Origin: Methyloversatilis discipulorum
GTDB lineage: Bacteria; Pseudomonadota; Gammaproteobacteria; Burkholderiales; Rhodocyclaceae
Reading direction: 5' to 3'
Assembly: GCF_018780585.1 (NCBI RefSeq)
Contig: NZ_JADMJL010000007.1
Coordinates: forward strand, 1 to 53,561
DNA: 53,561 nucleotides
Of the stretch, positions 19,001-36,080 are shown piece after piece. Both the position numbers and the translations under genes were made by a program. Within the stretch, counting starts at the first letter, position 1, and each line of letters begins with the position of its first letter. Under the pieces are notes generated by a model that saw nothing but the letters and a program-made list of their open reading frames with translations, was not told the origin of the DNA and made no database searches.

Positions 19001-22000
19001 CGCTGGTCCGTTGCCGACAGCCGCCCGCATGCGGCCGCGCCGGTGTCGCCGATGCTGCTTGCGGGGGCGGCGGGCGTCAGTCTCGACGGGCTTGCCGCCA
19101 GGCTGCGCCGCCTGCATCCGGCGCAGCCGCTGTGGCGCATCGAGACTTCGCAGCGCTTCCGCTTCCATGAAGGCCATTGCATCGACATGGATGCGGCCGA
19201 ACTCGCGCACCGGCGCACCTTGCTCGAACTGCTGCAGCACGGCGACGCCTTCCCGGCGACCGTCGTGTGGGTGGCCGGGAATTCGCATGACGCGGTCGAG
19301 GCCGACGTGCGGCGATTCGTCACGCTGGCGCAACTGCTGGTGGGCGCGCTGGGCGCACGTGCGCTGCGCCTGGTCTATGTCGGCACGCCGTCCGCCGACG
19401 ACGGGCGCTGCTTCCACGGCGCCATGGGCGGACTGCTGAAGAGCCTGCACCTCGAAGCGCCCCGCGTGTTGGCCGCCGTGCTGGAGCTGGATGCAGCGAC
19501 GCGCGACGACCCGGTCCGTCGCGCCGATGCGATTGCCGCCGCGCTGGCACGCCCGCTGTCGCCCGGTCAGGTGCCGCGTCTGCGCGTACGCGACGGGCGC
19601 ATCGAGGAGGAACGCTTTGCCTGGCTGGACGCGCCGACGGCCGACTGGTTGCCGACGCGCGGTGCGACCTATCTGATCACCGGTGGCATGGGTGCGCTCG
19701 GACGCATCTTCGCGCGCTGGCTGGCCCGCTGCGGCGTGCATGTTGCGCTGGTGGGCCGCAGTCCGCTGGATGACGAGGGTGCGCGCGCGGTCGCCGCTCT
19801 CGGTGGTGACGGCGCTTCGGTGGTGTACGTGCAGGGCGACGTGACCGACGCCGCTTCGCTCAACGGCGCGCTGCAGCAGATACGTGCAACGCTGGGCCCG
19901 GTACGCGGCGTCATCCATGCGGCCGGTGTGCTGCGCGACGCCTTCTTCGTCAAGCACGGCGACGATGACTGGCAGGCGGTGCTCGCACCCAAGATCGCCG
20001 CCGCACGTCTGCTCGACGAGGCGACGCGCGACGATCCGCTCGAAGCCTTCGTGCTGTTCTCGTCGCTGGCCGGCGCGCATGGCAATGTCGGCCAGAGCGT
20101 CTATGCCTATGCCAACGCCTGGCTGGACGACTACGCCGAACTGCGCGCGCAGGCGGTGGCCGAGGGGCGACGGCGTGGTCGCACGCTGGCGCTGGCCTGG
20201 CCGCTGTGGCGCAGCGAAAGCGGCATGCAGGCGCCACCGCCGGTCATGCAGTGGATGGCCGAGCGCGGCCTTGAACTGCTCGACGCGGAGCAGGGCGTAC
20301 AGGCGTTGCGCAGCGCGATGGCGAGCGGGGCGGCGGGTGTCGTCGTCTGCAGCGGCCGGCGCGAAGGCGTGGCCCGACTGCTGGAAGTCGGGCCGGCCGC
20401 GGTCGAGCGGCAGTCGCGGGCAGCAGCGCCCGTGCGCGCCGTCGCGACGGCTGTCGACACGGCAGGGGCACTGTGCAACCGGCTGGGCGACATGCTGGCC
20501 CGAGCCTGCGGCATCGCCCGCGCCCGTGTCACGCCGACCACGCCGCTGCAGTCGCTGGGCCTGGATTCCATCATGGTGATGGATCTGAATGGCGAACTGG
20601 ACAAGCACTTCGCGTCGCTGCCGAAGACGCTGCTGTACGAAGCCGACACCGTGCAGGCGCTCGCCGCGCACATCGCGTCGGCCGAGCCGGAGGCGGCGGC
20701 ACGCTTCGTCGGCGTCGCCACTGCGCCGCCGGAGGAGGCTGCGCAGCCGGCTGTCGCGGCGGTGCCTGCGGTGCCGGCGCCCTGCATGCAGTCGGAAACC
20801 GGGGGCCGGGGGTCGGAGGCAGGACACGGCCTGGCCATCGCCATCGTCGGCATCGCCGGCCGCTATCCGCGCGCCGCCGACCTCGACACCTTCTGGGACA
20901 ACCTGCTGCAGGGCATGGACTGCGTCGGCGAGCTGTCGCAGCGCTGGCCGGACGATCCCGCCTTCACCCGGCGCGAAGGTGAGGCGGGGAAGAGCGGCGC
21001 CTATGCACGCTGGGCCGCGCTGATCGACCACCACGACTGTTTCGATCCGCTGTTCTTCGGCATCGCGCCGCGCGACGCCGAACGCATGGACCCGCAGGAG
21101 CGGCTGTTCCTCGAAGCGTCCTGGCTGGCCATCGAGGACGCCGGCTACACGCCGCAGACCCTGCAGTCGCCGCCGTCGCGCGACGGCGCGCGGGCGCGCG
21201 TCGGCGTGCTGGCCGGCGTCATGTACGGCGAGTACCAGTACTACGGCGCCGGCGGCTCGGCCACGCTGACCAATTCGTCCTATGCCTCGATCGCCAACCG
21301 CGTGTCCTACACGCTGGGTTTCAACGGTGCCTCATTCGCGCTGGACAGCATGTGCTCTTCCTCGCTGACCGCGCTGCACACTGCCTGCCTGCTGCTGCGC
21401 GCCGGCGAATGCGACGCGGTGCTGGCCGGTGGCGTCAATCTGTCCAGCCATCCGTACCGCTACCGCATGTTGAGCGAACTGCAGTTCGCCGCCAGCGACG
21501 GCCGCTGCCGCAGCTTCGGCGCCGGCGGTGACGGCTATGTGCCGGGCGAGGGCGTCGGTGTGGTGGTGCTCAAGCGGCTGGACGACGCGCTGCGCGACGG
21601 CGACCACATCCACGGCGTCATCCGCGGTTCGGCCATCGGCCATGGCGGGCGCACGTCCGGTTTCACCGTGCCGACACCGGTCGGGCAGAGCGAGGTGATT
21701 GCGGATGCCTTCGCCGCGGCCGGCGTGCCGGCGTCGCGTCTGGGCTATATCGAGGCACACGGTACCGGCACCGGTCTGGGCGATCCGATCGAGCTGCGCG
21801 GCCTGGCGATGGCGCTCGAAGGCGTGCTGGATGATGCGGTCGTGCCGATCGGTTCGGTGAAGTCGCAGATCGGCCATCTCGAATCCGCAGCCGGCGTGGC
21901 CGCGCTGAGCAAGGTACTGCTGCAGATGCGGCATGGCCGGCTGGCGCCGTCGATACACAGCGAGCCGGCGAACCCCAATATCGACTTTTCGAAGCTGCCC

Positions 22001-22801
22001 TTCCGCGTGCAGGCCGAAGCGGCCGACTGGCCGGCACCGCGCGATGCGACAGGCCACACGCTGCCGCGGCTGGCGGCCATCAGTTCCTTCGGTGCTGGCG
22101 GTTCCAACGCGCACCTGGTGGTCGAGGAATGGCCGGGCACGCCGGCCACCGACTTGCCCGGTCCGCACATCGTCGTGCTGTCGGCGCGCACGCCGGACAC
22201 GCTGCGCACGATGGCGCAGTCGCTGGCACGCCATGTCGAACGTGCGCTGGAACTCGGCGAGGCGCAGTCGCTGGCCGATCTCGCGGCGACGCTGCGTATG
22301 GCGCGCGTCGCCCAGCCCAACCGGCTCGCCGTGATCGCCGATGACCTGAGGACGCTGGGGGCGCAGCTGCGCGCCAGTCTGGAAGGCGAGTTCTGGCAGC
22401 TCGACGCCTCCACACTGCCGGCCGGCGTGTTCAAGGGCGTGGCCGACGCCGAGGGCGCGGCCGCCGAGGCGGGCAGCGAGCCCGCGGCGCTGGCGCGTGC
22501 CTGGGTCAGTGGCGCCTTCGATGACTGGAGCGCACAGCCGGTGCCGCCGCTGCGCCGGCGCGTGCCGCTGCCCGGCACCGCCTTCCAGCGCCGGCGCTTC
22601 TGGGCGCAGCCGGTCGCCCCGGCCCCGCAGATCGCCGAGCCGGCGGTGACCTATGTCGCCACAGCGGCAGCACCGCCCGCGCCCGACATCGCTGCGCCGC
22701 TGTCGCCGCGCGACATCCTCGAACGAGTCAAGACCGGCCGCATGAGGCCCGACGAAGCGAAGCGTCTGCTCGCCGGCATGCGGGCCACCGCAGACCAGTA
22801 A
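16058..22801 (+). CDS. Trans-AT polyketide synthase, ACP-KS-DH-KR-ACP-KS
   Basis: 2247 residues from a GTG; an upstream in-frame ATG at 16040 is closed by a stop two codons later. Domains: ACP (1-90, S43 in GLESMS); KS (125-556, C304 in DTACSSSL, with EAHGTGT and NIGHLESAAG); post-KS adaptor ending LPGYPF; DH (735-975, H742 in HVVDGHAVFP, D889 and Q893); KR (1200-1460, GGMGALG 1209-1215, S1336/Y1349/N1353); ACP (1465-1560, S1504); KS (1590-2022, C1766 in DSMCSSSL). No AT domain is present, so malonyl must be supplied in trans. The protein starts with an ACP and ends on a KS, so both end modules are completed by other proteins. Its last residues (ILERVKTGRMRPDEAKRLL) resemble short docking motifs of trans-AT synthases. 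All key catalytic residues look intact. Confidence 0.93.
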   Translation: MIGVELQNDNLLAWLIDRLADVLGHDASRIHPHGTLEELGLESMSVVAMGRVLEAHFPMLPRTFLYDCRTVADVHDYLRTHFPGEAARLSASLTPVATHVAPAPRFSDQWETLDEVPADAGVAAMDQAIAIVGVAGRYPGAADLESFAAALAAGTDAVGEVPSERWSADGLFSRDPVARTQWASMSKWGGFLRDVDAFDSAFFGVSAVDADVMDPQERLFIECAWHALEHAGLGPERLPRSQPGAAARVGVFAGITTLSYPLLGEAHWRSGGGQVPTAMPWSVANRLSWLLDFDGPSIALDTACSSSLTALHLACESLRRDECAVALAGGVNLYLHPSKYVQLSQQRMLSPTGRCHAFGDAADGFVPGEGVGVVVLRRLADARAAGDRILGVIRATGIAHGGRTTGYTVPSSRSQGVLIRDTLVRAGMSASRIGYVEAHGTGTGLGDPVEVEGLLAGWAGERPQRCALGSVKANIGHLESAAGVAGLTKLLLQFRARTLFASLHSMRINPAIDLARTPFRIPQRTEPWPDETQPRCAALSSFGAGGANAHVIVEEWVDAPSDIAAGAMATVFPFSASDDEQLDVVLARFRDWLAPRLAELDTPTGRARVAVTLQLGRTPLRARALAVAASLAELLQSLSTGDLQRGGVGDAPVTADAGTGDPLALAARWLSGAPVQWSALWLTAGRVMPQPLDLPGYPFRRTRHWIGGAQTPSAVRFDAAPASAAPAGALHIAPDDWRARNHVVDGHAVFPAAGFLQLLAARLPGSDAIEFRDLMWGRPLVLDAPADVTVELEADGRCAVRSGGRDSGAAHLRGSLRSAMTEASPVIIGRPPGPFDRDAFYARFERMGLRYGPDFQPVRALMREASHAVAELLVTPRDDVGRIDPALLDGVFQCAVALAPDAVLAAGRAFVPFSMRRFALHAPLQGRARVRIEYRGSPAPGLHAFDFRVCADDGAPLADIEGFCFRAWEGARSAPLHLLQRRWSVADSRPHAAAPVSPMLLAGAAGVSLDGLAARLRRLHPAQPLWRIETSQRFRFHEGHCIDMDAAELAHRRTLLELLQHGDAFPATVVWVAGNSHDAVEADVRRFVTLAQLLVGALGARALRLVYVGTPSADDGRCFHGAMGGLLKSLHLEAPRVLAAVLELDAATRDDPVRRADAIAAALARPLSPGQVPRLRVRDGRIEEERFAWLDAPTADWLPTRGATYLITGGMGALGRIFARWLARCGVHVALVGRSPLDDEGARAVAALGGDGASVVYVQGDVTDAASLNGALQQIRATLGPVRGVIHAAGVLRDAFFVKHGDDDWQAVLAPKIAAARLLDEATRDDPLEAFVLFSSLAGAHGNVGQSVYAYANAWLDDYAELRAQAVAEGRRRGRTLALAWPLWRSESGMQAPPPVMQWMAERGLELLDAEQGVQALRSAMASGAAGVVVCSGRREGVARLLEVGPAAVERQSRAAAPVRAVATAVDTAGALCNRLGDMLARACGIARARVTPTTPLQSLGLDSIMVMDLNGELDKHFASLPKTLLYEADTVQALAAHIASAEPEAAARFVGVATAPPEEAAQPAVAAVPAVPAPCMQSETGGRGSEAGHGLAIAIVGIAGRYPRAADLDTFWDNLLQGMDCVGELSQRWPDDPAFTRREGEAGKSGAYARWAALIDHHDCFDPLFFGIAPRDAERMDPQERLFLEASWLAIEDAGYTPQTLQSPPSRDGARARVGVLAGVMYGEYQYYGAGGSATLTNSSYASIANRVSYTLGFNGASFALDSMCSSSLTALHTACLLLRAGECDAVLAGGVNLSSHPYRYRMLSELQFAASDGRCRSFGAGGDGYVPGEGVGVVVLKRLDDALRDGDHIHGVIRGSAIGHGGRTSGFTVPTPVGQSEVIADAFAAAGVPASRLGYIEAHGTGTGLGDPIELRGLAMALEGVLDDAVVPIGSVKSQIGHLESAAGVAALSKVLLQMRHGRLAPSIHSEPANPNIDFSKLPFRVQAEAADWPAPRDATGHTLPRLAAISSFGAGGSNAHLVVEEWPGTPATDLPGPHIVVLSARTPDTLRTMAQSLARHVERALELGEAQSLADLAATLRMARVAQPNRLAVIADDLRTLGAQLRASLEGEFWQLDASTLPAGVFKGVADAEGAAAEAGSEPAALARAWVSGAFDDWSAQPVPPLRRRVPLPGTAFQRRRFWAQPVAPAPQIAEPAVTYVATAAAPPAPDIAAPLSPRDILERVKTGRMRPDEAKRLLAGMRATADQ

Positions 22802-22837: not shown

Positions 22838-24175
22838 ATGACGGATTTTGATCGTACGGTGGGCATCATCGGCGGCGGCGCCTCGGGCATCGGTGTTGCC
22901 AAGGCGCTGACCGAGGCCGGCCTCGACTACGAAGTGCTGGAAGCCAGTGGCGGCCTCGGCGGCAACTGGCAGCCGGAAGGGCCGGCGTCGAAGATGTACG
23001 CGTCGGTGCACCTCATCAGTTCGCGTCGCAACACGCAGTTCTCCGATCTGCCGATGCCGGATAGCTACCCGCACTATCCGCGGCACAGCCAGATGTACGC
23101 CTACCTGATGTCAGTCGCCGAGCGCTTCCGGGTCGAGGCGCACACGCGCTTCCACACCCGGGTCGTCCGTGCGCGGCCGGAGGGCGGCGGCTGGCGCTGC
23201 GAACTGGCTGACGGCGGCGTGCGCCGCTACGCCCATCTGGTGGTCGCCAACGGCCTGCTGCGCATTCCGCTCGTTCCGAAGTTCGAAGGCCATTTTGACG
23301 GCGAAAGCGTGCACTCCGGCGACTATCGCTCGGCGGACCAGTTCCGCGGCAAGCGCGTGCTGGTGGTCGGTGGCGGCAATTCCGGCTGCGACATTGCGGT
23401 CGATGCGGCGCTCAATGCCGATGCGGCTTTCCATTCGACCCGGCGCGGCTATCACTACATGCCGAAGTTCGTCGATGGCAAGCCGACGCAGGAATGGCTG
23501 ATGGACATCGCACCGAAGTTCACCGATGCCCAAGCCTACTGGGACCACGTCGGTGCAGTGTTCAAGCTGGCCGGATTCGATGGCACCGACTTCGGCCTGC
23601 CGGCACCCGACCACCGCATCGATGCGGCACATCCGATCATGAATTCGCAGGTGCTGTACCACATCGGTCACGGCGACCTTGCGCCCAAGCCGGACATCCG
23701 CCGCATCGACGGCCGCACCGTCGAGTTCACCGACGGCAGCCGCGAGCAGATCGACCTCATCCTGTGGGCGACCGGCTTCCGCACCGATCTGTCCTTCTTC
23801 GATGCGGCGGATTTCGATCCGCGCGTCGATCTGGATCGCCTGTTCCTGCGCATGGTGCCGCAGCGCCACGACAACCTGCTCTTCGTCGGCTACCTCAATA
23901 CGCCGTCCGGCCTCGGCAACGTACTCAACATCACCGCGCGCTTCGTTGCCGCCTGCCTGCGCGCGCGCATCGCCGGCAGCGACAACTTCCGCCGGCTGCA
24001 GCAGATGAAGCAGCAGCCGGAGCGGCTCGACCTCGGTCAGGGCCGCTTCATGGATACCGATCGCCATCGCTACGAGGTCGACCTGTGGAAGTACATCCGC
24101 GCGGTCAATTTCGTCACCGGAAAGCTGCTCGACGGCGCCGCACAGACCGCGCCGGCCGAGGCGCTGACCGCATGA
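22838..24175 (+). CDS. Flavin-dependent monooxygenase (class B, FMO/Baeyer-Villiger type)
   Basis: 445 residues. The FAD-binding GGGASG is at 12-17 and the NADPH-binding GGGNSG at 178-183. Between them, F153-D-G-E-S-V-H159-S-G-D-Y163 matches the FxGxxxHxxxY fingerprint of class B flavin monooxygenases; LWATGF is the later FMO signature. Such enzymes in trans-AT clusters oxidise acyl chains still bound to the ACP, inserting oxygen (ester formation) or hydroxylating alpha carbons. The gene starts 36 bp after the first synthase and lies in the same operon. It is related to, but clearly distinct from, the flavin domain at the end of the next protein. Confidence 0.9.
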   Translation: MTDFDRTVGIIGGGASGIGVAKALTEAGLDYEVLEASGGLGGNWQPEGPASKMYASVHLISSRRNTQFSDLPMPDSYPHYPRHSQMYAYLMSVAERFRVEAHTRFHTRVVRARPEGGGWRCELADGGVRRYAHLVVANGLLRIPLVPKFEGHFDGESVHSGDYRSADQFRGKRVLVVGGGNSGCDIAVDAALNADAAFHSTRRGYHYMPKFVDGKPTQEWLMDIAPKFTDAQAYWDHVGAVFKLAGFDGTDFGLPAPDHRIDAAHPIMNSQVLYHIGHGDLAPKPDIRRIDGRTVEFTDGSREQIDLILWATGFRTDLSFFDAADFDPRVDLDRLFLRMVPQRHDNLLFVGYLNTPSGLGNVLNITARFVAACLRARIAGSDNFRRLQQMKQQPERLDLGQGRFMDTDRHRYEVDLWKYIRAVNFVTGKLLDGAAQTAPAEALTA

Positions 24176-24209: not shown

Positions 24210-27200
24210 ATGGACATGAGCATCGCCGACGAGCTGTCGCCGGAAGAGGCGCTGGCGCTGATCGAAGGACTGGAGATGGAGGAGACACCCATGGTCGCGC
24301 CGGCCATCGCTCCGGCTCCATCGACCGTTCCTGCAACGCGCGTGGTGCCGGCTGCGCGGCCGGCACTGGAGGTCGCGCTGGAGCACGATCTGGGCGCGCT
24401 GGTCATGGACGTGCTGAAGCTCGAAGCCACCGACTTCTCACCGACGCGCTCGCTGATGGACTACGGCATGGATTCGATCTCGTCCACCGAGATCGGCAAC
24501 CGCTTCACGGCGCGCTTCGGCATCGTCATTCCGCCCACCGTGTTCTTCGAATTCCAGGATCTGCGCGGTCTCACCCGCTATCTGCTGAAGAATCACGACG
24601 CCGACGTGAAGCGCGTGCTGGGTGACCTCGAAGGTTCGGTCGCCGTCGCGCCAGCCGCCGCCGCGGCCCGTGCCCCCGAACCTGTCCGGACAGCTCCCGC
24701 CCCGGTCCCGGTCCCGGCTCCCCGCCCGGCGCCCGTTGCCGCGGCGCCGTCGCCGGCACTGCGGGCGGTGACCGCGGCGGCCGACGCGCCGCTGTCGATC
24801 GAGGCGCTGTGGGCGGAGCAGGGCGGGGCCGCTGCGCCGGTGTCCGTCGTTCCGCCTGCACCCGTTCCCGCACCCTTACGCGTACCCGTCGCCCGGCAGC
24901 AGGACACCACCGCCCCGGAAGGCGGCGTGCGCCAGCCCTCGCGCGAACATCTGGATGCACAGCAGGCCGTCGTCGATCAGGCGCGTTCGGTCAGCGTGCA
25001 GGGTCGTTCCGGCCGCACCATCGAGGCGGCGGTCTACGGACGGGGCCGGCCTGTGCTGCTGCTCGGCGGCCTGGTCATGCACACCTCGGTCATGTGGCGG
25101 CTGCAGCTGCGCGAACTGGGCGAGCATTACCGGCTGATCGCCTATCACATGCCGGGCTGCGGCCGTACCGACTTCTACAGCCCGCTGACGTTGTCGTCGA
25201 TGGCGGACGACGTGGCCGAACTGCTGGATGGCCTGGGCATCAGCGAACCGCTGCCGGTGATCGGCTATTCCTTCGGCGGCGTGCTGGCGCAGCGCTTCTG
25301 CGTCGACCATCCGCAGCGCGTGTCCGCGCTGGTGGCGACGGTCACCTCGCCGTTCGCGCAGGGCGCCAACGATTTCGCCACGCTGATGCGCGAGCTGCAG
25401 ATGAGCGAGCGCTTCATGGAACTGAACCGCGGCTGGAACATTCCGTCGCTGCCGGCCTACCAGGCCGTCGTTGGTGCCTTCGACCACCGCGAGGCGCTGT
25501 CCGCGCTGCGTTGCCCGGCGCTGGTGATCAGCGGGCGCGATGACCGCTACATGCAGCCGGCCTATGGCCGCGCGCTGGCCGACGCGCTGCCCGGTGCGCG
25601 CTACGTCTGCTTCCCGGGCGCCGGCCATCTGCTGGGCTTTACCCATTTCGAGGCCTACAACCGTCTGCTGCTGCGTTTCCTCGACGAAGTGGCGCCGGCG
25701 CGCGGCGAGGTGGCGGGTGTGCCCGCACTGGTGCCGGCCAGCGTTTTCGCACCGGCCGACGCCGACGCGCTGCAGGTGCTGGAGGACTATGTGCGCCGCG
25801 GCGATCAGGGGCACTGCGCCATCCTGTCGCCGCAGTCGGCCCAGGTCGCGCTGCTGCTCAACCGCATCCAGGCACAGAACAAGAGCGGCGACGAGGACTA
25901 CCGCTGCCTGTTCCTGACCTCGCAGCACGAGGCGCTCGACGCCGCGCTGCGCCTGGCCCGGCACCGCGCGCGCAACCGCGACGCCGACAGCAGCGGCGAA
26001 CTGCTGCTGATCGACGCAGGAGAAGGCTGGCGTCGCTACTTCGATCCGCTGGACGCGGGTCCGGACGACGCACTGGTCCCGGGTGTGGTGTTCGTGTCCA
26101 CCGTGCTCGAAGCGATCGAGCGGCTGGAAGGCGGCGCCTCGCCGGTGGCGGCCGTGCTGGTGTGCGATGCCTTCACGCCGGCCGAGGACGCCGACCGCCT
26201 GATCGCCGCCTGCGCCGCGTGCGAGGTGCTCAGCGTGCTGGTCGACAACAACGATCCGGACACTGCGGCTGCGGAGTGGATCGCGCCGTCCTGCCGCGAG
26301 CGCGCCGACATGATCGTGCTCGGCGAATCGATGGCCGCGAGCCGGGTGCCGGTGGCCGCCTGCATGGTGCGCGCGCCGGTACACCAGACCTGGAGCATGA
26401 CGCCCAGCGAAAGCTATGTGCGCAACGTGATGACCAGCTTCGGCTTCCCGCTGGCGGTGGCGCGCGAGGCACTGCTCCGGGCCTTCGGCGATCGCATCGA
26501 CGCCGCTACGCACCGGCTGATGCGGCGCATCGACGCCGACGTCGACGCCTGCTACGACGCGCACCTGCGCTGGGGCAATTCGGGGTATGCGCGGGTGGCG
26601 CGACTGCACGGCTTCGACGCGCGCTTCGAGGCGGCACGCGGCATGAAGTCGCTGCTGCGCGACCGCGACGGCACCGCGCGCACGGTACTCGACTGCTTCG
26701 TGAACGTGGGCACCAGTCCGCGCGGCCTCAATCCGCTGGACGTGATCGACGGCGTGGTGCGCGCGCACGACGCGAACACCGACTACTGGGGCGAACTGGC
26801 TGCGCTGCTCAGTGCGCGCACCGGTCTTCCGCATGCCTTCCCGGCCTCCAGCAACGTGACCGCGGTCGAGGTGGCGCTGACGCTGGGCGCGCTCGCCCGC
26901 CCGCAGAAGCGCCGCATGCTGTTCTTTTCCGGAGGTCTCGGCTTCTCGATGCTGAGCGCGGTCGCTTCGCACGACGCGGTGTTCGACATCTTCCGCAAGC
27001 CCTTCGAGCCTCTGTACCGGCACAGCGTATTCATCGACGCGCACGCGCCGGACGCGGCGCAGAAGCTCGAAGCCGAACTGCTGTCCGGCGACATCGGCTT
27101 GGTGTGGTTCGAAACCATACAGGTGGACGCCAACGCCACCCGCCCGCTGCCGCCGCATCTGGTCGAACTCATCGTCCGTCACCGCGAAGCCGGCGGCTAT

Positions 27201-29447
27201 CTGGTCGGGGTGGATGAAACCCAGACCAATCTGATGACCGGCCGCCTGCTGCATAGCGCGCCGCAGGTGCCGTCGCCCGACCTGGTCGCGCTGGGCACCG
27301 CGCTGTGCGATTCGCTGGTGCCGGCCGGTGTCGTGCTGTGCAGCGACGCGCTACGGCAGCGCGCGCAGCAACGTTCGCCGGCCCGCGTGCAGGAACTGGC
27401 TGGCCGCCAGCGCTGCCCGCTGTCGGCACACATTTCGCTGCACGCGCTGCGCAAGGTGTTCGAGCAGGAACTCGATGAACGTGCGCGCATCACCGGCGCA
27501 TCCTTCCGCTCCAAGCTGACGGCGCTGCAGCGCGAACTGCCGATGATCACCGCCGTGCGCGGCGAAGGCCTGCTGCTCACCATCGATCTCGACCTCGCGG
27601 GCGCCGATCCCTTTCTGCAGCGCAGCTTCGGCTACCTGCTGTGGGGCGCCATGCTGCGCGACCCGGTGCAGGGCGTGGCGGTCGCGGTCTGCCCCATCCA
27701 CAACAACAGCCTGCGTTTCCTGCCGCCGCTGGACATCGCCGACGCCGAGATCGACCTCATCGTCGACAGCCTGCGCCGCCATCTGTCCGGCGGCATCGCG
27801 CCGGTGGTGCTCGACTGCGCGGCGCATTCGGCGCGCATCGGCGAAGCGCGCACCGCCGCATTCCTGAAGTCCCTCGTCCCCACCGAAAACAAGGAGGTCC
27901 GTCGCATGAGTGCTCCCCGTTCACTGTCCGCGCCGCCGGTCGCACGCGAATTCACCCGCGCCTTCGTCGAACGCATTCCGGGCGGCGCACGCATGCTCGA
28001 ACGCCTGCGCGGCAAGGGCCGCTCGCCGCGCCAGCTGCCACGCGTGTGCGTGGTCGGCGCCGGCGTCGGCGGCATTTCCATCGGCAAGGCGCTGACCGAA
28101 TACGGCATCCCCTTCGACTGCTTCGATGGACGCGACCGCATCGGCGGCATCTGGGCCTTCGATCCGGATCGCAAGTTCACCTCGGTGTGGCATGCGATGA
28201 ACCAGAACACGCCGCGTGGCCTGTACCAGTACACCGACTTCCCGATGCCGGACGACTACCCGGATTTCCCGTCGCACCAGCAGGTGCATGCCTATCTGGA
28301 GCGCTATGTCGAGCACTTCGGCTTCCGCGAGTGCATTCAGCTGAACACCCAGGTCACGCGCGCCGAGCGCATCGGTGACAAGGGCTGGCGGGTCACGCTG
28401 GACAGCGGCGAGGTGCGCCACTACGACGCGCTGGTGGTGGCCAACGGTCACCACAACGAACCGAACTTTCCGGACTACTACTATCGCGACGTCTTCGACG
28501 GCGAATCCATCCACTCGCAGCACTACCGCTACCGCGAGGACTACCGCGACAAGGACGTGCTGGTCGTCGGGGTCGGCAACAGCGGTTCGCAGGTGGCGGT
28601 CGACATCAGCCACGCGGCGAAGTCGACCTGCATTTCGCTGCGCCGAGGTGTGTACGTGCTGCCGCACTACCTGCTGGGGCTGCGTATGGACCGCGCGATG
28701 GCCTTCCTGAACGACTGGTGGTTCAAGAAGATCCTGCCCTATCCGCTGTTCAACCTGGTGCACACCGGTCTGTACAAGGCGCTGATCCAGCGCCACAGCA
28801 GCATGGGCATGCCCAAGCCCGATCACCTGATGATGTCCAGCCTGCCGACGCTGTCGGAGAACTTCGCCAACCGCATCGGCGACGGCAAGCTGAAGATCGT
28901 GCCCGAGGTGAAGCACATCAAGGGCCGCAAGGTGTTCTTCGCCGACGGCAGCGTGTGCGAGTTCGACGCCATCGTCTATTCGACCGGATTCAAGACCACC
29001 TTCCCCTTCCTCGACAAGCAGTTCCTGAACGCCGACGACAACAAGGTGCCGATGTTCAAGCGCATCTTCGTGCCGGGCGTGGACAACCTCGCCTTCATCG
29101 GCCTGTTCCAGGCGGTGACCTGGGGCTTCCTCGACATGATGGAGGCGCAGTCGAAGCTGGTGGCCGAGCACTTTGCCGGCTTCTATCGTCAGCCCGATGT
29201 CGCGGCGCAGAAGCGCGACATCGAGCGCGAGCAGAAAATCATCCGCCGCGAGTATCTGGCGACGCTGCGCAACAACTACGAAATGCACGGCCCGACCTAT
29301 ATGCACGAGCTGGCGAAGGAACATGGCCGCGGCCGTGCGCGCGCCCGCAAGGCCGGTCTGCCGATGCCTTGCCCGGCCAGCGGCGTGCCGGTGACCGACG
29401 AGAGCACGTCGCAGGACGTGCCGGCGCTGGCCGGAGCAACGGTGTGA
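24210..29447 (+). CDS. Five-part fusion: ACP - alpha/beta hydrolase - two PLP-fold (class III aminotransferase-like) domains - flavin monooxygenase
   Basis: 1745 residues in one frame. ACP at 55-125 (S89 in YGMDSIS), preceded by LSPEEALALI. An Ala/Pro linker leads to an alpha/beta hydrolase (250-500; S354 in GYSFGG, H473 in GAGHLLGF, acid near 443). Residues 510-770 resemble part of a class III aminotransferase, but the lysine site is E706 (VLGESM) and the cofactor Asp region reads VDNND. Residues 770-1215 are a fuller class III fold with VDETQT (D1002), yet the lysine position is T1030 (LGTALC). The C-terminal FMO (about 1275-1745) has GAGVGG (1283-1288), GVGNSG and FDGESIHSQHY. So neither PLP-like half should form the usual Schiff base. 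It presumably accepts an acyl chain from the upstream KS on its own ACP and oxidises it. The alignments were made by eye. Confidence 0.85.
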   Translation: MDMSIADELSPEEALALIEGLEMEETPMVAPAIAPAPSTVPATRVVPAARPALEVALEHDLGALVMDVLKLEATDFSPTRSLMDYGMDSISSTEIGNRFTARFGIVIPPTVFFEFQDLRGLTRYLLKNHDADVKRVLGDLEGSVAVAPAAAAARAPEPVRTAPAPVPVPAPRPAPVAAAPSPALRAVTAAADAPLSIEALWAEQGGAAAPVSVVPPAPVPAPLRVPVARQQDTTAPEGGVRQPSREHLDAQQAVVDQARSVSVQGRSGRTIEAAVYGRGRPVLLLGGLVMHTSVMWRLQLRELGEHYRLIAYHMPGCGRTDFYSPLTLSSMADDVAELLDGLGISEPLPVIGYSFGGVLAQRFCVDHPQRVSALVATVTSPFAQGANDFATLMRELQMSERFMELNRGWNIPSLPAYQAVVGAFDHREALSALRCPALVISGRDDRYMQPAYGRALADALPGARYVCFPGAGHLLGFTHFEAYNRLLLRFLDEVAPARGEVAGVPALVPASVFAPADADALQVLEDYVRRGDQGHCAILSPQSAQVALLLNRIQAQNKSGDEDYRCLFLTSQHEALDAALRLARHRARNRDADSSGELLLIDAGEGWRRYFDPLDAGPDDALVPGVVFVSTVLEAIERLEGGASPVAAVLVCDAFTPAEDADRLIAACAACEVLSVLVDNNDPDTAAAEWIAPSCRERADMIVLGESMAASRVPVAACMVRAPVHQTWSMTPSESYVRNVMTSFGFPLAVAREALLRAFGDRIDAATHRLMRRIDADVDACYDAHLRWGNSGYARVARLHGFDARFEAARGMKSLLRDRDGTARTVLDCFVNVGTSPRGLNPLDVIDGVVRAHDANTDYWGELAALLSARTGLPHAFPASSNVTAVEVALTLGALARPQKRRMLFFSGGLGFSMLSAVASHDAVFDIFRKPFEPLYRHSVFIDAHAPDAAQKLEAELLSGDIGLVWFETIQVDANATRPLPPHLVELIVRHREAGGYLVGVDETQTNLMTGRLLHSAPQVPSPDLVALGTALCDSLVPAGVVLCSDALRQRAQQRSPARVQELAGRQRCPLSAHISLHALRKVFEQELDERARITGASFRSKLTALQRELPMITAVRGEGLLLTIDLDLAGADPFLQRSFGYLLWGAMLRDPVQGVAVAVCPIHNNSLRFLPPLDIADAEIDLIVDSLRRHLSGGIAPVVLDCAAHSARIGEARTAAFLKSLVPTENKEVRRMSAPRSLSAPPVAREFTRAFVERIPGGARMLERLRGKGRSPRQLPRVCVVGAGVGGISIGKALTEYGIPFDCFDGRDRIGGIWAFDPDRKFTSVWHAMNQNTPRGLYQYTDFPMPDDYPDFPSHQQVHAYLERYVEHFGFRECIQLNTQVTRAERIGDKGWRVTLDSGEVRHYDALVVANGHHNEPNFPDYYYRDVFDGESIHSQHYRYREDYRDKDVLVVGVGNSGSQVAVDISHAAKSTCISLRRGVYVLPHYLLGLRMDRAMAFLNDWWFKKILPYPLFNLVHTGLYKALIQRHSSMGMPKPDHLMMSSLPTLSENFANRIGDGKLKIVPEVKHIKGRKVFFADGSVCEFDAIVYSTGFKTTFPFLDKQFLNADDNKVPMFKRIFVPGVDNLAFIGLFQAVTWGFLDMMEAQSKLVAEHFAGFYRQPDVAAQKRDIEREQKIIRREYLATLRNNYEMHGPTYMHELAKEHGRGRARARKAGLPMPCPASGVPVTDESTSQDVPALAGATV
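27891..27908 (+). promoter_or_regulatory. Strong internal ribosome-binding site and ATG inside the fusion gene
   Basis: AAGGAGG at 27891-27897 is followed, eight bases on, by an in-frame ATG at 27906 (M1233 of the fusion), at the exact boundary before the C-terminal flavin monooxygenase. This is one of the best Shine-Dalgarno sequences in the operon, yet it lies in open frame. It may give a separate monooxygenase of about 513 residues besides the fusion, or be the relic of a former gene border. Confidence 0.5.
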
Positions 29448-32140
29448 TGCAGCCGTCCGCGGCCATCGCCATCGTCGGCCTTGCGGCGCGTCTGCCCGGT
29501 GCGCCGGATGTCGCCAGCTTCTGGCAGACGCTGCTCGGCGACGCAGCGGCCATCGCCGAGGTGCCGCCGTCACGCTGGGACTGGCGCGCGCATTACGCGC
29601 CGCCGGGCGGCGCGGCGAATACCGCCTACTCGACGGTGGGCGGGTTCATCGACGACGTGGATGCCTTCGATCTGCGCCATTTCGGCATCGCGCCGCGCGA
29701 AGCCGAGGCGATGGACCCGATGCAGCGGCTGTTCCTGCAGTCCGCATGGACCGCGCTGGAGGACGCCGGCATCGCGCCGCGCAGCCTGTCCGGCCGGCGT
29801 GTCGGCGTGTTCGCTGGCGTCGGCAATGCCGAGTACACGTCGCTGATGCGTGCCGCGCACTGCGACAACGACGCCTACCGTGCGACCGGCATGGCGCTGA
29901 CGCTGGTCGCCAACCGGCTGTCCTATGTGCTGAACCTGCGCGGCCCGAGCCAGGTGGTCGATACCGCCTGCTCCGGTTCGCTGGTTGCGGTCCATCGCGC
30001 CATCGAGCAGCTGCGTCTCGGCCAGTGCGAACTGGCGCTGGCCGGTGGCATCAGCCTGATGCTGAGCCCGGAACTGCATGTCGCCTTCAGCCAGGCCGGC
30101 ATGCTGAGCAGCGCCGGGCGCTGCCGGCCCTTCGACGCCGAAGCCGACGGCTATGTGCGCGGCGAGGGCGCCGGCGTGGTGGTGCTGAAGCGGCTGGACG
30201 ACGCGATGCGCGACGGCGATTTCATCCACGCCTGCATTCTCGCCTCGGCCGAGAACCACGGCGGCCGCGCACACAGCCTGACCGCGCCCAGCTTCAAGGG
30301 GCAGGCCGAAGTCGTCGCTGCGGCCTGGCAGGCGGCCGGTCCGGCCGTGCGTCATCTGTCGCACATCGAGACGCATGGCACCGGTACGCCGCTGGGCGAT
30401 CCGATCGAGATCGCCGGGCTGAACGAGGCGCTGCGTCAGTGCCGCGGCGTCGATCCCGAATGCACGCCGGCCGGCGACATCCGGCTCGGCGCGCTGAAGG
30501 CGCGCATCGGCCACCTCGAAGCGGCGGCCGGCATCGCCGGTCTGATCAAGACCGTGCTCGCGCTGCGGCACGGGCTGATTCCGGGCCATCCAGCGTTCGT
30601 CCGCGCCAATCCGCAGCTCGAACTGAGCGGCTCGCCGCTGCGCATCGTCGACCGTCCGCAGCCCTGGGGCGAAGGGCCGCTTGTGGCGGGGGTCAGTTCA
30701 TTCGGTTTCGGCGGCGTCAACGCGCACGTCGTGCTGCAGGCGCAGCCTGTGCCGGTGTGGCCGGCCGGTGCTGGCGAGGCCGAGGTCGTGCTGCTGTCGG
30801 CGCGTGACGCCGACACGCTGCGCGCCCGCGCGGTGCAGCTGTTCGACTACCTGTACCCGCAGGTGCAGCCACACGCGCTGCTTGCGCTGCACCGGGCCGC
30901 CGGTGTGCGCGACTTTGATGCGCAGTGGCAGGCGCTCGGTGTCGATGCGGACTCGATGGTGCGCGCTGCCGATGCGGCCGCGCAGGCGCTGGGCATCGAT
31001 GCCGCGCGGCTCGATCTGCGCGACTGCCTGAACTGGGGTGAGGTCGCGGCCGCGCTGAGCGAAGCCTTGCCCGCAACGGATGCGCCGGCGCGGCTGTCCG
31101 CCGACGCCAGCCTGCCGCGGCAGGTGCTGGCGCCGACGCTGCATGCGCTTGCCGGCTCGCTGTTCCTCGGCCGCGATTTGCAATCGCATCGGCTTGCCAT
31201 TGCGGCCGAGGATTTCGGCGAACTGGCGCTGCAGTTGGCGGCGTGGCTTTGCAGTGCGCCCGCCCCCTTGGCCGTTGCCGCACAGAGCGCGAAGGACGGC
31301 GGTGGCGAAAGGCCGTTGCCTGACTGGCAGAGCGCAAGCGGGCTGGCCGACTGGCTGCGTGTTGAACTTGCCTTTCCCGCGTTGAGCGAACAGCTGTCCG
31401 CGCGCTACGTCGCGGGTTGTCTGGCGCGCGTGCCACTGCCCACACTGCCGTTCCGTCGCGATCGTGTGTGGTTCAAGGCGGCGGCGCCGGTTGCCCCGCC
31501 GCCCGCCGCCGAGGAGTCGCACGACATCGACGCATTGCTCGGCCCCTGGACCACCTTCCTCGGCCGCAGGCCTGCCTGCCTGCCTTCGCTGCTGCCTTGG
31601 CCGAGCCATGCCGGCACGAGTGGCGCCGTCAGTTTCATCGGTGTCGCCTGGGCCGCTGCATCGCCGCGTCACCTGCGAGTGACGCCGACCCGCGCGGACG
31701 GCGGTTTGCGCTATCGCGCACAGACGGATGATGGCGCGCAGACCCTGCTGCGCGTCGAGCGCGTCGTCACCGGTGGCGGAGCAGAGGCGGTGACCGGTAG
31801 TCCGCATGCCTTCACGATGGACATCGACGTGTCGCCGTCGCACGACGCGCGCGCGCTGTGGATGCACTGGACGGTTGCCGTCACGCGTGCGTTGCAGGCC
31901 ATGTTCCGCGACGTCACTGCGGTGCCGCTGCTGCCCTACCGCGCGGCGCGGGTGAGCTGGGCCGAAGTGCCGAAGAGCGGTCCGCAGCGCCTGCTGCTGG
32001 CCGTTGACGCCGACAGCGGACGCGTCGGCGTGCGCGGCGAAATCGACGGACGCGCGGTGCTGCAGATCGATGGTCTGGAACTGCGCGAGGCACGCTGGCT
32101 GGCGCAGCCATCGACGACCGGCGCGGAGATGCTGTCATGA
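29447..32140 (+). CDS. Polyketide synthase: ketosynthase with C-terminal degenerate DH-like region
   Basis: 897 residues; the ATG overlaps the previous stop by one base (TGATG). KS at 5-430 has intact C175 in DTACSGSL, ETHGTGT and RIGHLEAAAG. A post-KS adaptor of about 230 residues ends with LPTLPFRRDRVWF. Residues 690-890 align by eye with the second half of a dehydratase double hot-dog: the pair AVLQIDGLELREA matches the DH end (ADIEGF in the first synthase). Neither the HxxxGxxxxP histidine nor the DxxxQ/H motif is visible, so it is probably inactive or a structural DH*. No ACP, KR or AT is present. The KS may work with the discrete ACP encoded two genes on. Confidence 0.88.
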   Translation: MQPSAAIAIVGLAARLPGAPDVASFWQTLLGDAAAIAEVPPSRWDWRAHYAPPGGAANTAYSTVGGFIDDVDAFDLRHFGIAPREAEAMDPMQRLFLQSAWTALEDAGIAPRSLSGRRVGVFAGVGNAEYTSLMRAAHCDNDAYRATGMALTLVANRLSYVLNLRGPSQVVDTACSGSLVAVHRAIEQLRLGQCELALAGGISLMLSPELHVAFSQAGMLSSAGRCRPFDAEADGYVRGEGAGVVVLKRLDDAMRDGDFIHACILASAENHGGRAHSLTAPSFKGQAEVVAAAWQAAGPAVRHLSHIETHGTGTPLGDPIEIAGLNEALRQCRGVDPECTPAGDIRLGALKARIGHLEAAAGIAGLIKTVLALRHGLIPGHPAFVRANPQLELSGSPLRIVDRPQPWGEGPLVAGVSSFGFGGVNAHVVLQAQPVPVWPAGAGEAEVVLLSARDADTLRARAVQLFDYLYPQVQPHALLALHRAAGVRDFDAQWQALGVDADSMVRAADAAAQALGIDAARLDLRDCLNWGEVAAALSEALPATDAPARLSADASLPRQVLAPTLHALAGSLFLGRDLQSHRLAIAAEDFGELALQLAAWLCSAPAPLAVAAQSAKDGGGERPLPDWQSASGLADWLRVELAFPALSEQLSARYVAGCLARVPLPTLPFRRDRVWFKAAAPVAPPPAAEESHDIDALLGPWTTFLGRRPACLPSLLPWPSHAGTSGAVSFIGVAWAAASPRHLRVTPTRADGGLRYRAQTDDGAQTLLRVERVVTGGGAEAVTGSPHAFTMDIDVSPSHDARALWMHWTVAVTRALQAMFRDVTAVPLLPYRAARVSWAEVPKSGPQRLLLAVDADSGRVGVRGEIDGRAVLQIDGLELREARWLAQPSTTGAEMLS

Positions 32141-33282
32141 AGGCGGTCGTCTTCCCCGGTCAGGGCGCACAGCGCAAGGGCATGGGCGTCGAACTGCTCG
32201 AGCGCTATCCGCGGCTGGTCGAGCAGGCCGATGCGGTGCTCGGCTACAGCCTGCACGATCTGTGCACAGAAGGTGCCGACCGTCTGATCGACACCCGCTA
32301 CACACAGCCGGCGCTGTTCGTCACCGGCTATCTCGGCTACCTGGATCACGCGCACCGGCATGGCGCGCCGGCCATGCTGGCCGGCCACAGCATCGGCGAG
32401 TTCGTTGCGCTGGCGGCGGCCGGCGCGCTCGACTTCATCGACGCACTGCGTCTGGTCGACCGGCGTGCCCGCATCATGGCCGCCATCCGCGACGGCGCGA
32501 TGGCGGCGGTCATCGGCCCCGGGCGCGACGAGGTGGACGCGTTGATCGCGCGCCTGGGCGTCGATGGACTGGAGATCGCGAACGAGAACAGTCCCACGCA
32601 GACCATCGTCGCCGGGCTGTCGGGCGAGATCGATGCCTTCGTCGAGCGCTGCCGCGAAGCCGGCACGCGGGCGGTGCGCCTGCGCGTCAGCGGTGCCTTC
32701 CATTCGCGCCACATGCGGCCAGCGGCTGCCGAGTTCGCGCAGACGCTGCGCGAAACGCCGTTCCAGGCCCCGCGCATTCCGGTCATCGCCAATGTGACCG
32801 CACGGCCGCATGACGCGCGGATCGCCGACGTGATGGCCGCTCATCTCTACAGCCCGGTGCGCTGGATGCAGTCGGTGCACGCCATGCTCGACGCCGGCGT
32901 GACCGAGTTCGTCGAGATCGGCCCGGCGCCGGTGCTCGGACCGATGATCGACGAGATCCGAGCCGGCTGGCGACCGCAGCGACGCGCAGCGGTGGCGGAG
33001 GTGCACTGGCCCGAGTTCGCACCGCCCCCGGTTGCAGGTGCTCACGCCGCACTGGCCGCCGCGCTGCACCGGCTGTACGTCGAGCCGGCTGCCAGTGCCG
33101 CCGACTGGGCCGCGCTGTGGCCGTGCGGACTCGATGTCGCAGGCTGGCCGCCGCTCGAACTGGCGGCCACGCCGCGCGCCGTGCGCCGGCAGGTCCGCCG
33201 CGCACTGGCAACCCTGATTCCGGCGGCCGCGTCCGCGCAGCACGCCGACCCGTCTTCACCCTTGCACGGACGACACCCATGA
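32137..33282 (+). CDS. Discrete malonyl-CoA:ACP acyltransferase (trans-AT)
   Basis: 381 residues, overlapping the previous gene by four bases (ATGA). FabD-like features are PGQGAQ (7-12), the nucleophile elbow GHSIGE with S85, and GAFHS with H189, the pattern of malonyl-specific transferases. It supplies extender units to the synthases that lack an AT domain. Residues from about 300 onward form a C-terminal extension of some 80 residues beyond a usual FabD length, without a motif I recognise. It ends by overlapping the ACP gene (ATGA). Confidence 0.93.
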   Translation: MKAVVFPGQGAQRKGMGVELLERYPRLVEQADAVLGYSLHDLCTEGADRLIDTRYTQPALFVTGYLGYLDHAHRHGAPAMLAGHSIGEFVALAAAGALDFIDALRLVDRRARIMAAIRDGAMAAVIGPGRDEVDALIARLGVDGLEIANENSPTQTIVAGLSGEIDAFVERCREAGTRAVRLRVSGAFHSRHMRPAAAEFAQTLRETPFQAPRIPVIANVTARPHDARIADVMAAHLYSPVRWMQSVHAMLDAGVTEFVEIGPAPVLGPMIDEIRAGWRPQRRAAVAEVHWPEFAPPPVAGAHAALAAALHRLYVEPAASAADWAALWPCGLDVAGWPPLELAATPRAVRRQVRRALATLIPAAASAQHADPSSPLHGRHP

Positions 33283-33538: not shown

Positions 33539-35323
33539 ATGGATGCGCGCATCGAAACCGACGATCTCGCTGCCGGCCTTTACGACGAGGTGTCCGCGCT
33601 GTCGGTCACCGACATCCTGCAGCGGCGTGCGGAGCGACACCCGCAGCGGGTGCTGTTCCGCTTCCTCGACGAGCACGGCCGCGAGGAGGACGTGCTCACC
33701 TACGGCGACGCCTGGCGGCGCAGCACGGCGATCGCGGCCGTGCTGGCGGCGCACGGCGGGCCGGGCGACCGCGTTGCGCTGTTCTATCCGGCCGGTCTGG
33801 ATTTCATCGTCGCCTTCTTCGGCTGCCTGCTGGCCGGGCGCGTCGCGGTGCCGCTCAATCTGCCGAGCCGGCGCCGCGTCGACCGTTGCCTGCGCATCCT
33901 GCGCGACTGCGGCTGCCGGCGTGCGCTGACCGTGTCGTCGCTGGAGGCCGGGCTGCGCGACATCCTGTCGGTCGACGCCGATCTGCCGCTGGCCTGGCTC
34001 GCCACGGACGCGCTGCGCGAAGAAGCCGAAGCGGCCGGCATCGTGCCGCCGCCGGCCGACGAGCGCATCGCCTTCCTGCAGTACACCTCCGGCTCGACTT
34101 CGCATCCGAAGGGCGTCATGGTGAGCCAGCTCAACATCACCACCAACCTGCGCATGATGCGCACCGCCTGGGAACTGGACCACACGTCGAACACGGTGTT
34201 CTGGCAGCCGCACCATCACGACATGGGCCTCATTCTCGGCCAGCTGCTGCCGGTCATGCTGGGCAACGAAACGGTGCTGATGGGCCCAAACACCTTCGTC
34301 CGCCAGCCGCTGATCTGGCTCGATGCGATCTCGCGCTATCGCGCGGTGCTGGCCGGTGGGCCGAACTTCGCCTACGAGCTCGCAGCGCAGCGCTGGCAGC
34401 CCGGCCGGCTCGACGGCTGCGACCTGTCCAGCTGGCGCATCGCGCTGAATGGCGCCGACGTCGTGCGCGCGGCGACGCTGGAGCGCTTCGCCGCCACCTT
34501 CGGCGCGCTCGGCTACCGGCCCACCACCATGCTGCCGTGCTATGGCCTGGCCGAGGCGACACTGTTCGTGTCCGGCGGCCCGGTCTACGAAATGCCGCGC
34601 GTGCGCAGCATCGATGCACACGCCGCCGAGACCGAAGGCCGCGTGCGCGACGATCTGGGGGCCAGCGGACGTACCGTGGTCGGCTGCGGCCTGCCGTCGG
34701 ACGAGATCGAGGTCGCCATCGTCGATCCGGCGAACGGCGAGCGGCTCGGCTGCGATCGCCTGGGTGAGGTGTGGGTGTCGGGCGACACCAATGCGCTGGG
34801 CTACTGGCAGCTGCCGGAGCAGAGTGCGGCCACCTTCGGCGCCGAGATTGCCGGCGAGCCGGGTCGTCGCTACATGCGCACCGGCGACATCGGCTTCATC
34901 GGTGCCGACGACGGCCAGATCTATCTGTGCGGGCGGATGAAGGACCTGCTCATCGTCGATGGCCGCAACCTGCATCCGGAGGACGTTGAATACACCATCG
35001 TCGAGTCGCATCCGCTGATCAAGCCGCAGAGCTGCGCGGTGTTCGAGGACGACCGCGGCGAGCAGCGCCGGCTGGTGGCGGTGATCGAAGCCGACCGCGA
35101 ACTGAAGCGGGCACTGCCGGAGATCGCGAGGGCGCTGCGCATGCAGGTGCGGCGCGCGGTGTCGGAAGAGCACGGCGTGGCCATCGCCGACATCGTGTTC
35201 ATCGCGCCGGCGACCTTGCGCAAGACCACCAGCGGCAAGGTGCAGCGCAGTCTGATGAAGCAACTGCATCAGCAGTCTGCGCTCGACGTGATCGACGTGG
35301 CGGTGGCGCTCGATGCCGCCTGA
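33539..35323 (+). CDS. Fatty-acyl-AMP ligase (FAAL-type adenylating enzyme)
   Basis: 594 residues of the ANL superfamily. The ATP-binding P-loop YTSGSTSHPKG is at 182-192, WQPHHHDMGL follows (a typical FAAL stretch), then CYGLAEAT near 339, RTGDIGF and a late KTTSGKVQRS containing the catalytic Lys. FAALs activate a fatty or aryl acid as acyl-AMP and load it on an ACP instead of CoA. The FAAL versus acyl-CoA-ligase call is based on the HHHDMGLI pattern, overall length and the ACP context. It probably loads the starter unit. Confidence 0.9.
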   Translation: MDARIETDDLAAGLYDEVSALSVTDILQRRAERHPQRVLFRFLDEHGREEDVLTYGDAWRRSTAIAAVLAAHGGPGDRVALFYPAGLDFIVAFFGCLLAGRVAVPLNLPSRRRVDRCLRILRDCGCRRALTVSSLEAGLRDILSVDADLPLAWLATDALREEAEAAGIVPPPADERIAFLQYTSGSTSHPKGVMVSQLNITTNLRMMRTAWELDHTSNTVFWQPHHHDMGLILGQLLPVMLGNETVLMGPNTFVRQPLIWLDAISRYRAVLAGGPNFAYELAAQRWQPGRLDGCDLSSWRIALNGADVVRAATLERFAATFGALGYRPTTMLPCYGLAEATLFVSGGPVYEMPRVRSIDAHAAETEGRVRDDLGASGRTVVGCGLPSDEIEVAIVDPANGERLGCDRLGEVWVSGDTNALGYWQLPEQSAATFGAEIAGEPGRRYMRTGDIGFIGADDGQIYLCGRMKDLLIVDGRNLHPEDVEYTIVESHPLIKPQSCAVFEDDRGEQRRLVAVIEADRELKRALPEIARALRMQVRRAVSEEHGVAIADIVFIAPATLRKTTSGKVQRSLMKQLHQQSALDVIDVAVALDAA

Positions 35324-36080
35324 GACCGCAGCCGGACGGCTGGTGCGCATCTGCGACGCCGGTGCCGGCGCACCGGTGGTGCTGGCCGTGCCCTACGCCG
35401 GTGGCAGTGCGCAGTCCTTCTTCGCCTGGAAGCCGCTGCTCGACGGACAGCTCACGCTGCTGGCACTCGAACTGCCCGGGCGCGGTCGCTGCTACGGCCA
35501 GCCGATGCCGTCGTCGCTGCTCGCGCTGGCCGATGGGCTGGCGCAGACGCTGGCCACCGAAGGCGTGCAGCCGGACCTGCTGTTCGGTCACAGCCTCGGG
35601 GCGCTGATCGCTTTCGAACTGCTGCGCGCGCTGCGCCGTCGCGGCCGGTCGCTGCCGGCTGCGGCGCTGATGTCGGGCCGCATCGCGCCTTCGCATCCGC
35701 GCACCTTCGGGTTGCCGCGCTTCGGGCGTGAGGATCTGGTCGAGTATCTGCGCGACCTCGGTGGCACGCCGGACAGCGTGCTGAACAACGACGCGGTGAT
35801 CGACATGATGCTGCCGGTGCTGCAGCAGGATCTCGAACTGATTGCCGGCTATGACTACGCGCGGGCGGCGCCGCTGGATATCGACCTGACCGTTGCCGGC
35901 GGTTTCGACGACGGGCGTGTGCCGCTGTCCGGCCTGCTCGGCTGGCACGAGGAATGCACCGGGCGCTTTGCGCTGCACATGCATCCGGGCGGTCACTTCT
36001 TCGTCGAAACCGAGCGCGCCGCGATGGCCACCCTGTTGTGCGAGCTGGCCGCGCGCGGTCCGCGCGCCAAGGCAGCCTGA
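35313..36080 (+). CDS. Type II thioesterase (editing hydrolase)
   Basis: 255 residues, starting 11 bases inside the ligase gene. Alpha/beta hydrolase with PYAGGSAQSF near residue 27, S94 in GHSLG, D199/D200 in GGFDD and H228 in PGGHFF, the triad of type II thioesterases. Such enzymes clear wrongly primed or stalled carriers in polyketide and peptide assembly. As no thioesterase domain ends any synthase here, it may also take part in release, although the internal hydrolase domain of the fusion protein is the other candidate. Confidence 0.93.
   Translation: MPPETAAGRLVRICDAGAGAPVVLAVPYAGGSAQSFFAWKPLLDGQLTLLALELPGRGRCYGQPMPSSLLALADGLAQTLATEGVQPDLLFGHSLGALIAFELLRALRRRGRSLPAAALMSGRIAPSHPRTFGLPRFGREDLVEYLRDLGGTPDSVLNNDAVIDMMLPVLQQDLELIAGYDYARAAPLDIDLTVAGGFDDGRVPLSGLLGWHEECTGRFALHMHPGGHFFVETERAAMATLLCELAARGPRAKAA

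Follow-up and report, generated by a model that had tools for sequence, protein, structure and literature searches.

Folds of PLP-dependent enzymes that lack the Schiff-base lysine are unusual, and the locus described here raises the question of what two such units, joined in tandem within one polypeptide, might do. The window, a stretch of 53,561 nucleotides from Methyloversatilis discipulorum (contig NZ_JADMJL010000007.1), encodes a protein with two consecutive units resembling class III aminotransferases, designated unit 1 (PsiAT1) and unit 2 (PsiAT2), together with the neighbouring genes listed in Table 1. Nucleotides 25740-27860 correspond to residues 511-1217, such that position p of this region is residue p + 510; the numbering given in an earlier note for this span, and for E706 (within LGESM), D1002 and T1030 (within LGTALC), was found to be correct.

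Table 1. Features of the two-unit protein and of the surrounding gene cluster in the window.
Feature	Positions	Strand	Evidence
PKS protein (PKS1), two KS, DH, KR and ACP domains, RhiE-type KS linkers	16058..22801	+	
FMO1, stand-alone flavin monooxygenase, conserved upstream neighbour	22838..24175	+	Pfam FMO-like 5.3e-42
ORF, 1745 residues: ACP - alpha/beta hydrolase - unit 1 - unit 2 - flavin monooxygenase	24210..29447	+	
ACP domain, residues 61-125, DSI motif at S89	24390..24584	+	Pfam PP-binding 4.1e-14
Alpha/beta hydrolase, nucleophile motif GYSFGG with S354; H473	24930..25718	+	Pfam Abhydrolase_1 4.3e-24
Unit 1 (PsiAT1), class III aminotransferase large domain, residues ~511-770	25740..26519	+	Model, Foldseek, profile
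E706 codon (GAA), Schiff-base lysine column of unit 1	26325..26327	+	
W-x-MTP-x-E-x-YVR loop of unit 1, residues 728-738, modelled with low confidence	26391..26423	+	
Unit 2 (PsiAT2), class III aminotransferase-like subunit of almost full length, lysine absent, residues ~770-1215	26520..27860	+	
D1002 codon, pyridine-nitrogen Asp equivalent, 15/15 rows	27213..27215	+	
T1030 codon (ACC), Schiff-base lysine column of unit 2	27297..27299	+	
FMO2, flavin-dependent monooxygenase domain, residues 1278-1704	28041..29321	+	Pfam FMO-like 1e-63
KS protein, C-terminal ~430 residues without Pfam match	29444..32140	+	
Free-standing acyltransferase (AT)	32137..33282	+	Pfam Acyl_transf_1 6.8e-40
AMP-binding ligase, probably fatty acyl-AMP-ligase-like	33539..35323	+	Pfam AMP-binding 2.4e-63
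Thioesterase (TE)	35313..36080	+	Pfam Thioesterase 3.5e-33

Relatives were collected by a scan of a genome collection (84,980 species according to its description), which yielded 13 loci, and by tblastn of plasmids at a coverage of at least 80%, which contributed one further locus (L031) on the megaplasmid of M. extorquens AM1. Given that the scan requires one of two exact peptide patterns, more distant relatives would be missed. Together with the window these loci form an alignment of 15 rows, in which a draft Methyloligella locus (L041) was cut ahead of a frameshift and a locus from a Beijerinckiaceae contig (L037) is partial. The frameshift lies within unit 2 at about position 11911 of L041 and is either a sequencing error or real; the match region is free of stops in the 14 other rows. 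The nearest relative is that of Methyloversatilis universalis, at 92% in the two-unit region, and the source genome of the window contains a single match. Profile searches at E ≤ 1e-60 detected copies in at least 1 of 300 genomes of the window's order (the window's own), at least 4 of 298 genomes of the genus of L034 and at least 2 of 397 genomes of the order of L038, the starting genome being included in the latter two counts; these are lower bounds because just two or three candidates were scored per genome. Seven profile-found loci, the window's own excepted, repeat existing rows and therefore represent no new copies. Among viral contigs, 46 stretches matched the patterns and none encoded a relative.

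The earlier note had described the region as two tandem class III aminotransferase folds. Both units are indeed predicted to carry the large domain of fold type I (class III aminotransferase, PF00202), with model, Foldseek and profile evidence placing a type I PLP fold in each region, but unit 1 is a large cofactor domain of ~260 residues and not a complete subunit. In a Pfam search of the whole protein, unit 2 alone was detected (Aminotran_3, residues 949-1190, E 6.3e-16) and unit 1 had no match; unit 2 also aligned with the putrescine aminotransferase YgjG (4uox) over almost its full length. Unit 1 gave a weak match to NCBIfam (E 0.0028; 16 bits, where the cut-off is 467). When a 14-member profile of unit 1 was compared with the PDB, the best match was acetylornithine aminotransferase (2eh6, 1.6e-5) and the second a class III aminotransferase (6.3e-4), all others having E values of 0.01 or worse. 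Modelled alone, unit 1 reached a pLDDT of 82.8 and a pTM of 0.82, and the 50 Foldseek matches listed for this model were aminotransferases or relatives of the class III fold, such as amino acid racemases; the best E value among these matches was 1.1e-8, but structural agreement was moderate by TM-score (0.51-0.64, query length) and the rmsd was large (4.2-12.1).

A local profile comparison of the two units gave a score of 47.9 (P 7.8e-6, probability 84%) over unit 1 positions 60-218, a value reached by none of 100 column shuffles (maximum 26.2) and well above that of the reversed profile (15.3). In this local alignment LGESM of unit 1 pairs with LGTAL of unit 2; a forced global alignment was weaker (probability 25%). 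The joint model of both units was confident (pTM 0.88), as expected if the two are held in a constant orientation, but this is not proof of packing like that of a class III dimer. The least confident stretch of both models (pLDDT <50 at region positions 216-232) coincides with the W-x-MTP-x-E-x-YVR loop of unit 1, the named residues of which are identical in 15/15 rows. This invariance arises partly by construction, since MTP[SN]E[SG]YV was itself used, with one other pattern, in the scan. In six rows it is the only pattern present, such that invariance of the loop was forced; the other nine contain both patterns, such that it was not. An invariant loop modelled at low confidence is what might be expected of a segment that becomes ordered only on a partner or ligand. 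A loop of unit 2 at region positions 400-415 was poorly modelled, and its alignment is unreliable.

To place the missing lysine, the 15 rows were aligned jointly with control aminotransferases, of which 25 of 29 loci were usable, four that were unmatched by the unit 2 query having been left out. E706 and T1030 fell in one column, which holds Lys in 25/25 controls, in agreement with the earlier proposal that the lysine is missing at both sites. At this column unit 1 has Glu in 14 rows and Gly in one, and unit 2 has Thr in nine and Ser in six, so that Lys is found in 0/15 rows of either unit; the Thr/Ser difference requires one change on the 15-row tree. A replacement lysine within the region had also been considered, yet none of the lysine columns in the 707-residue two-unit region is invariant across the 15 rows, the commonest being those of K558 (13/14 rows with a residue) and K902 (12/15).

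Other residues of the cofactor site are retained in unit 2. D1002, equivalent to the Asp that contacts the pyridine nitrogen and already described as kept in the earlier note, is conserved (15/15 rows; controls 25/25), as are Q1005 (15/15; controls 24/25), an Asp or Glu at 973 (15/15; Glu in 21/25 controls), R1169 (14/14 rows reaching that far; controls 23/25), and T1004 and E968 (each 15/15). In a pairwise alignment D1002, Q1005, residue 973 and R1169 correspond to Asp271, Gln274, Glu243 and Arg426 of YgjG. Disregarding gaps, 113 of the 445 positions of unit 2 are invariant, polar residues of the cleft included. By contrast, the phosphate-cup Gly present in 25/25 controls is replaced by Asn, Thr, His, Tyr or Gln in all 15 rows of unit 2, and a TFGGN-type segment present in the control rows listed is absent. 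At the pyridine-nitrogen Asp column of the joint alignment, unit 1 has Val or Ile in 15/15 rows.

YgjG, as described in the sections of its structural report consulted (PMC4244111), has K300 and contacts the phosphate through Gly150, Thr151 and, from the other subunit, Thr332; it has both the lysine and the cup Gly, unit 2 neither. When matched by helix register, the cross-subunit Thr falls at region position 232, where Thr or Ser is found in 10 rows and Ala in five; on this alignment the dimer-crossing Thr does not appear to be clearly retained in unit 1. T731 of the MTP motif was considered as a stand-in for Thr332 and rejected, as alignment from the helix start places the Thr at position 232. 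The stacking residue F180 of YgjG was paired with F912 by phmmer and unpaired in the multiple alignment, and we make no claim for it. Without the phosphate-cup Gly, unit 2 is unlikely to perform canonical PLP chemistry despite its retained Asp and Gln, and ordinary Schiff-base transamination should not be expected from either unit on the basis of these sequences.

Selection was assessed domain by domain. Between the window and M. universalis, dN/dS was 0.077 for the hydrolase, 0.086 for FMO1, 0.112 for unit 2, 0.167 for the AT, 0.183 for the ACP, 0.187 for the AMP-ligase, 0.192 for unit 1, 0.215 for PKS1, 0.279 for the TE and 0.294 for the KS protein. In this comparison the unit 2 value is bracketed by those of its catalytic neighbours, and unit 1 is under weaker constraint than unit 2. 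Against the more distant L032, the corresponding values were 0.219 (hydrolase), 0.252 (unit 2), 0.253 (AT), 0.290 (TE), 0.323 (AMP-ligase), 0.344 (unit 1) and 0.408 (KS protein). The ratios of both units therefore speak against decay.

The genetic setting of the units is conserved. The order PKS1, FMO1, ACP/hydrolase/unit 1/unit 2, FMO2, KS, AT, AMP-ligase and TE was observed in 13/14 other loci as far as the contigs reach; clusters without the two-unit region would be invisible here because the loci were found through that region. FMO1 is in place in 12/14 other loci (L032 and L037 start downstream of it), and FMO2 was found in 13/14, the exception being L037. The DSI motif of the ACP is present in 12/14 (L032 and L037 are truncated at that point) and the G.S.GG motif of the hydrolase, the Pfam match of which starts at residue 281, in 13/14 (L037 being truncated there), such that both the ACP serine and the hydrolase nucleophile motifs are kept in every locus covering them. 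In all five Pseudomonas loci (L034, L035, L039, L043 and L044) the ORF stops after unit 2 and FMO2 has an ORF of its own, a natural form suited to expression of the protein without fused FMO2. On the 3556-base contig of the Beijerinckiaceae MAG (L037:1912-2021), a KS gene directly follows unit 2 with no FMO2 between them. The FxGxxxHxxxY pattern, a fingerprint of FMO and not of Baeyer-Villiger enzymes, is present in both window monooxygenases, that of FMO2 included; it was not found in FMO2 of 6/13 loci or in FMO1 of L036 and L041. A cytochrome P450 gene (12938-14167, minus strand) lies upstream of the PKS gene on the opposite strand and was unmatched in the 14 fetched loci, most of which barely extend upstream of the PKS gene.

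The RhiE-type KS linkers, taken together with the free-standing AT, identify the window cluster by sequence as one of the trans-AT PKS type. On the AM1 megaplasmid, 3/3 matches to this linker family lie inside the L031 cluster, and in the genome of L042 the three above the cut-off all lie in the cluster, a fourth, elsewhere, being below it; the family also matched in 2/14 control genomes and is not a strict trans-AT marker. L031 contains all 11 cluster parts in the same order. L031 is probably the cluster for toblerol, a cyclopropanol polyketide, and the conserved cluster would then be of the toblerol type. Toblerol assembly is described in a commentary as following poorly understood principles (PMC12338139), and the authors of a 2022 study of a different cyclopropanol pathway state, citing the toblerol report, that no other routes to cyclopropanol products were known (PMC9359912).

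Part of the present finding has been anticipated. In the sections of Milano et al. (2013; PMC3870968) consulted, the M. extorquens protein C5B3B9 is listed as CP-ABHy-PLP1-FMO and the M. universalis protein F5RC11 with ABHy6, and the lysine is given as replaced by Thr in the proteins of M. extorquens (C5B3B9 and H1KFY7) and M. universalis (F5RC11). The M. extorquens accession appears there as C5B3B9 in the table and as C3B5B9 in the text. The listed domain order of C5B3B9 and F5RC11 and their Lys-to-Thr change are the same as in the window protein and its unit 2, and from species and layout we infer that C5B3B9, H1KFY7 and F5RC11 are the L031 protein and kin of L033. Because the Lys-to-Thr change is stated in those sections, the finding is already in print as far as unit 2 is concerned. 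The same sections list a single PLP domain per protein, whereas the window protein has two units; mention of unit 1, of pairing or of a family-wide Glu/Thr/Ser survey was not seen in them, and the word "tandem" occurs zero times in the main text. Unit 1 may be described in the toblerol report (Ueoka 2018). Also listed in PMC3870968, within the same sections, is the Sorangium cellulosum protein A1YBQ7 (CP-KS-CP-CP-ABHy6-PLP1, Lys to Val), which is a PKS that, like the window protein, has a hydrolase beside a class III domain lacking the lysine, but differs in having Val at the lysine site and no monooxygenase in the listed layout.

Among characterized enzymes, PigE (4ppm), the transaminase of the prodigiosin pathway, was the best NCBIfam match of unit 2 and occupied the first Foldseek row for the two-unit model. 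In the sections of the PigE report consulted (PMC8341465), the enzyme has the spectrum of a PLP-lysine Schiff base and an N-terminal domain similar to acyl-ACP reductases. That unit 1 might be a PigE-like reductase was ruled out, its model having the aminotransferase fold; an acyl-ACP-reductase-like domain does not adjoin the units, the neighbours of which are the hydrolase and FMO2. Comparable in one respect are serine palmitoyltransferase (LCB1/LCB2) and the glycine decarboxylase P-protein, in which a Lys-less fold-type-I unit completes a pair. In those proteins, however, the partner retains its lysine, whereas both units of the window protein are without it.

Retention of the lysine loss in all relatives found suggests from sequence that the aminotransferase fold now serves another function, and several readings of that function can be weighed. 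The two units could be catalytically dead, serving only as a tether between ACP, hydrolase and monooxygenase or as a docking site for the ACP. Loss of the lysine from both units and of the cup Gly from unit 2 fits such a scaffold, as do the reduction of unit 1 to a large domain without the Asp in the joint alignment and its weaker constraint (0.192 versus 0.112). Against it, the invariant positions of unit 2 include polar cleft residues, its dN/dS falls among the values of catalytic neighbours, and the monooxygenase is encoded by its own ORF in the five Pseudomonas loci and does not adjoin the units in L037; strong conservation could nevertheless also be caused by packing. We regard the scaffold as unlikely on balance, though a serious contender. 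A purely structural role, one of the suggestions of the earlier note, is possible and not favoured, given that D1002, Q1005, D/E973 and R1169 persist in unit 2, the dN/dS of which is 0.112. The other suggestion, gating of the adjacent monooxygenase, is weakened by the Pseudomonas and L037 arrangements.

Alternatively, unit 2 might bind PMP or PLP non-covalently and employ another base, as in the ColD-type sugar dehydratase, where His takes the place of Lys. The Asp and Gln retained in 15/15 rows and the acid-Arg pair would suit a cofactor, but the replacement of the cup Gly, the absence of the TFGGN-type segment and the presence of Thr or Ser, not His, at the lysine site make a lysine-free PLP/PMP enzyme improbable. 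It is very improbable that the protein is an ordinary transaminase with its lysine supplied from elsewhere in the region: only the K558 and K902 columns are frequent, and, considering the lysines of this region alone, no column is invariant. That the units are a functionless, decaying remnant is scarcely credible, even if the residue losses look decay-like and the L041 draft copy is frameshifted in unit 2, given the dN/dS of each unit, the like patterning of the lysine-site residues, D1002 and Q1005 in 15 rows from several proteobacterial families, and the uninterrupted reading of the other 14 rows.

A working domain that operates without a Schiff base is favoured because of the selection on the units and the kept pocket acids, Gln, Arg and Thr/Ser hydroxyl. 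Specifically, we place slightly short of an even chance on unit 2 being a functional domain whose substrates are ACP-bound intermediates and whose built-in pseudo-protomer is unit 1; the dimer-like pairing, the substrate and the chemistry are what we infer. Unit 1 would be a non-catalytic internal partner that replaces the second protomer and places its W-x-MTP-x-E-x-YVR loop at the cleft of unit 2. Unit 2 would still be the working domain, its former cofactor cleft now presenting the Asp and Gln, the acid-Arg pair and a Thr/Ser hydroxyl in place of the lysine, and would handle an ACP-bound polyketide intermediate in this cleft. Its step may be among the on-line steps around the hydrolase and monooxygenase, which would yield the unusual oxygenated part of the polyketides (in toblerol, the cyclopropanol). 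A more specific version, which we consider quite unlikely, is that the pair is a cofactor-independent enzyme whose pseudo-dimer cleft catalyses a carbon-skeleton step on the ACP-bound, monooxygenase-oxidised chain, such as a Favorskii-like closure to the cyclopropanol.

The working-domain reading names its own targets, T1030, D1002, E706 and the MTPxExYVR loop, and a relative of the gene is available in M. extorquens AM1. The Sorangium protein with the Lys-to-Val change is one that we take to belong to the ambruticin (cyclopropane) cluster; if it is the ambruticin protein, and if the pair is indeed a cofactor-independent enzyme of the kind just described, the device would be common to two cyclopropane pathways. 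Within the family itself, both units are without the lysine in 15/15 rows and yet are under purifying selection, which points to a repurposed fold.
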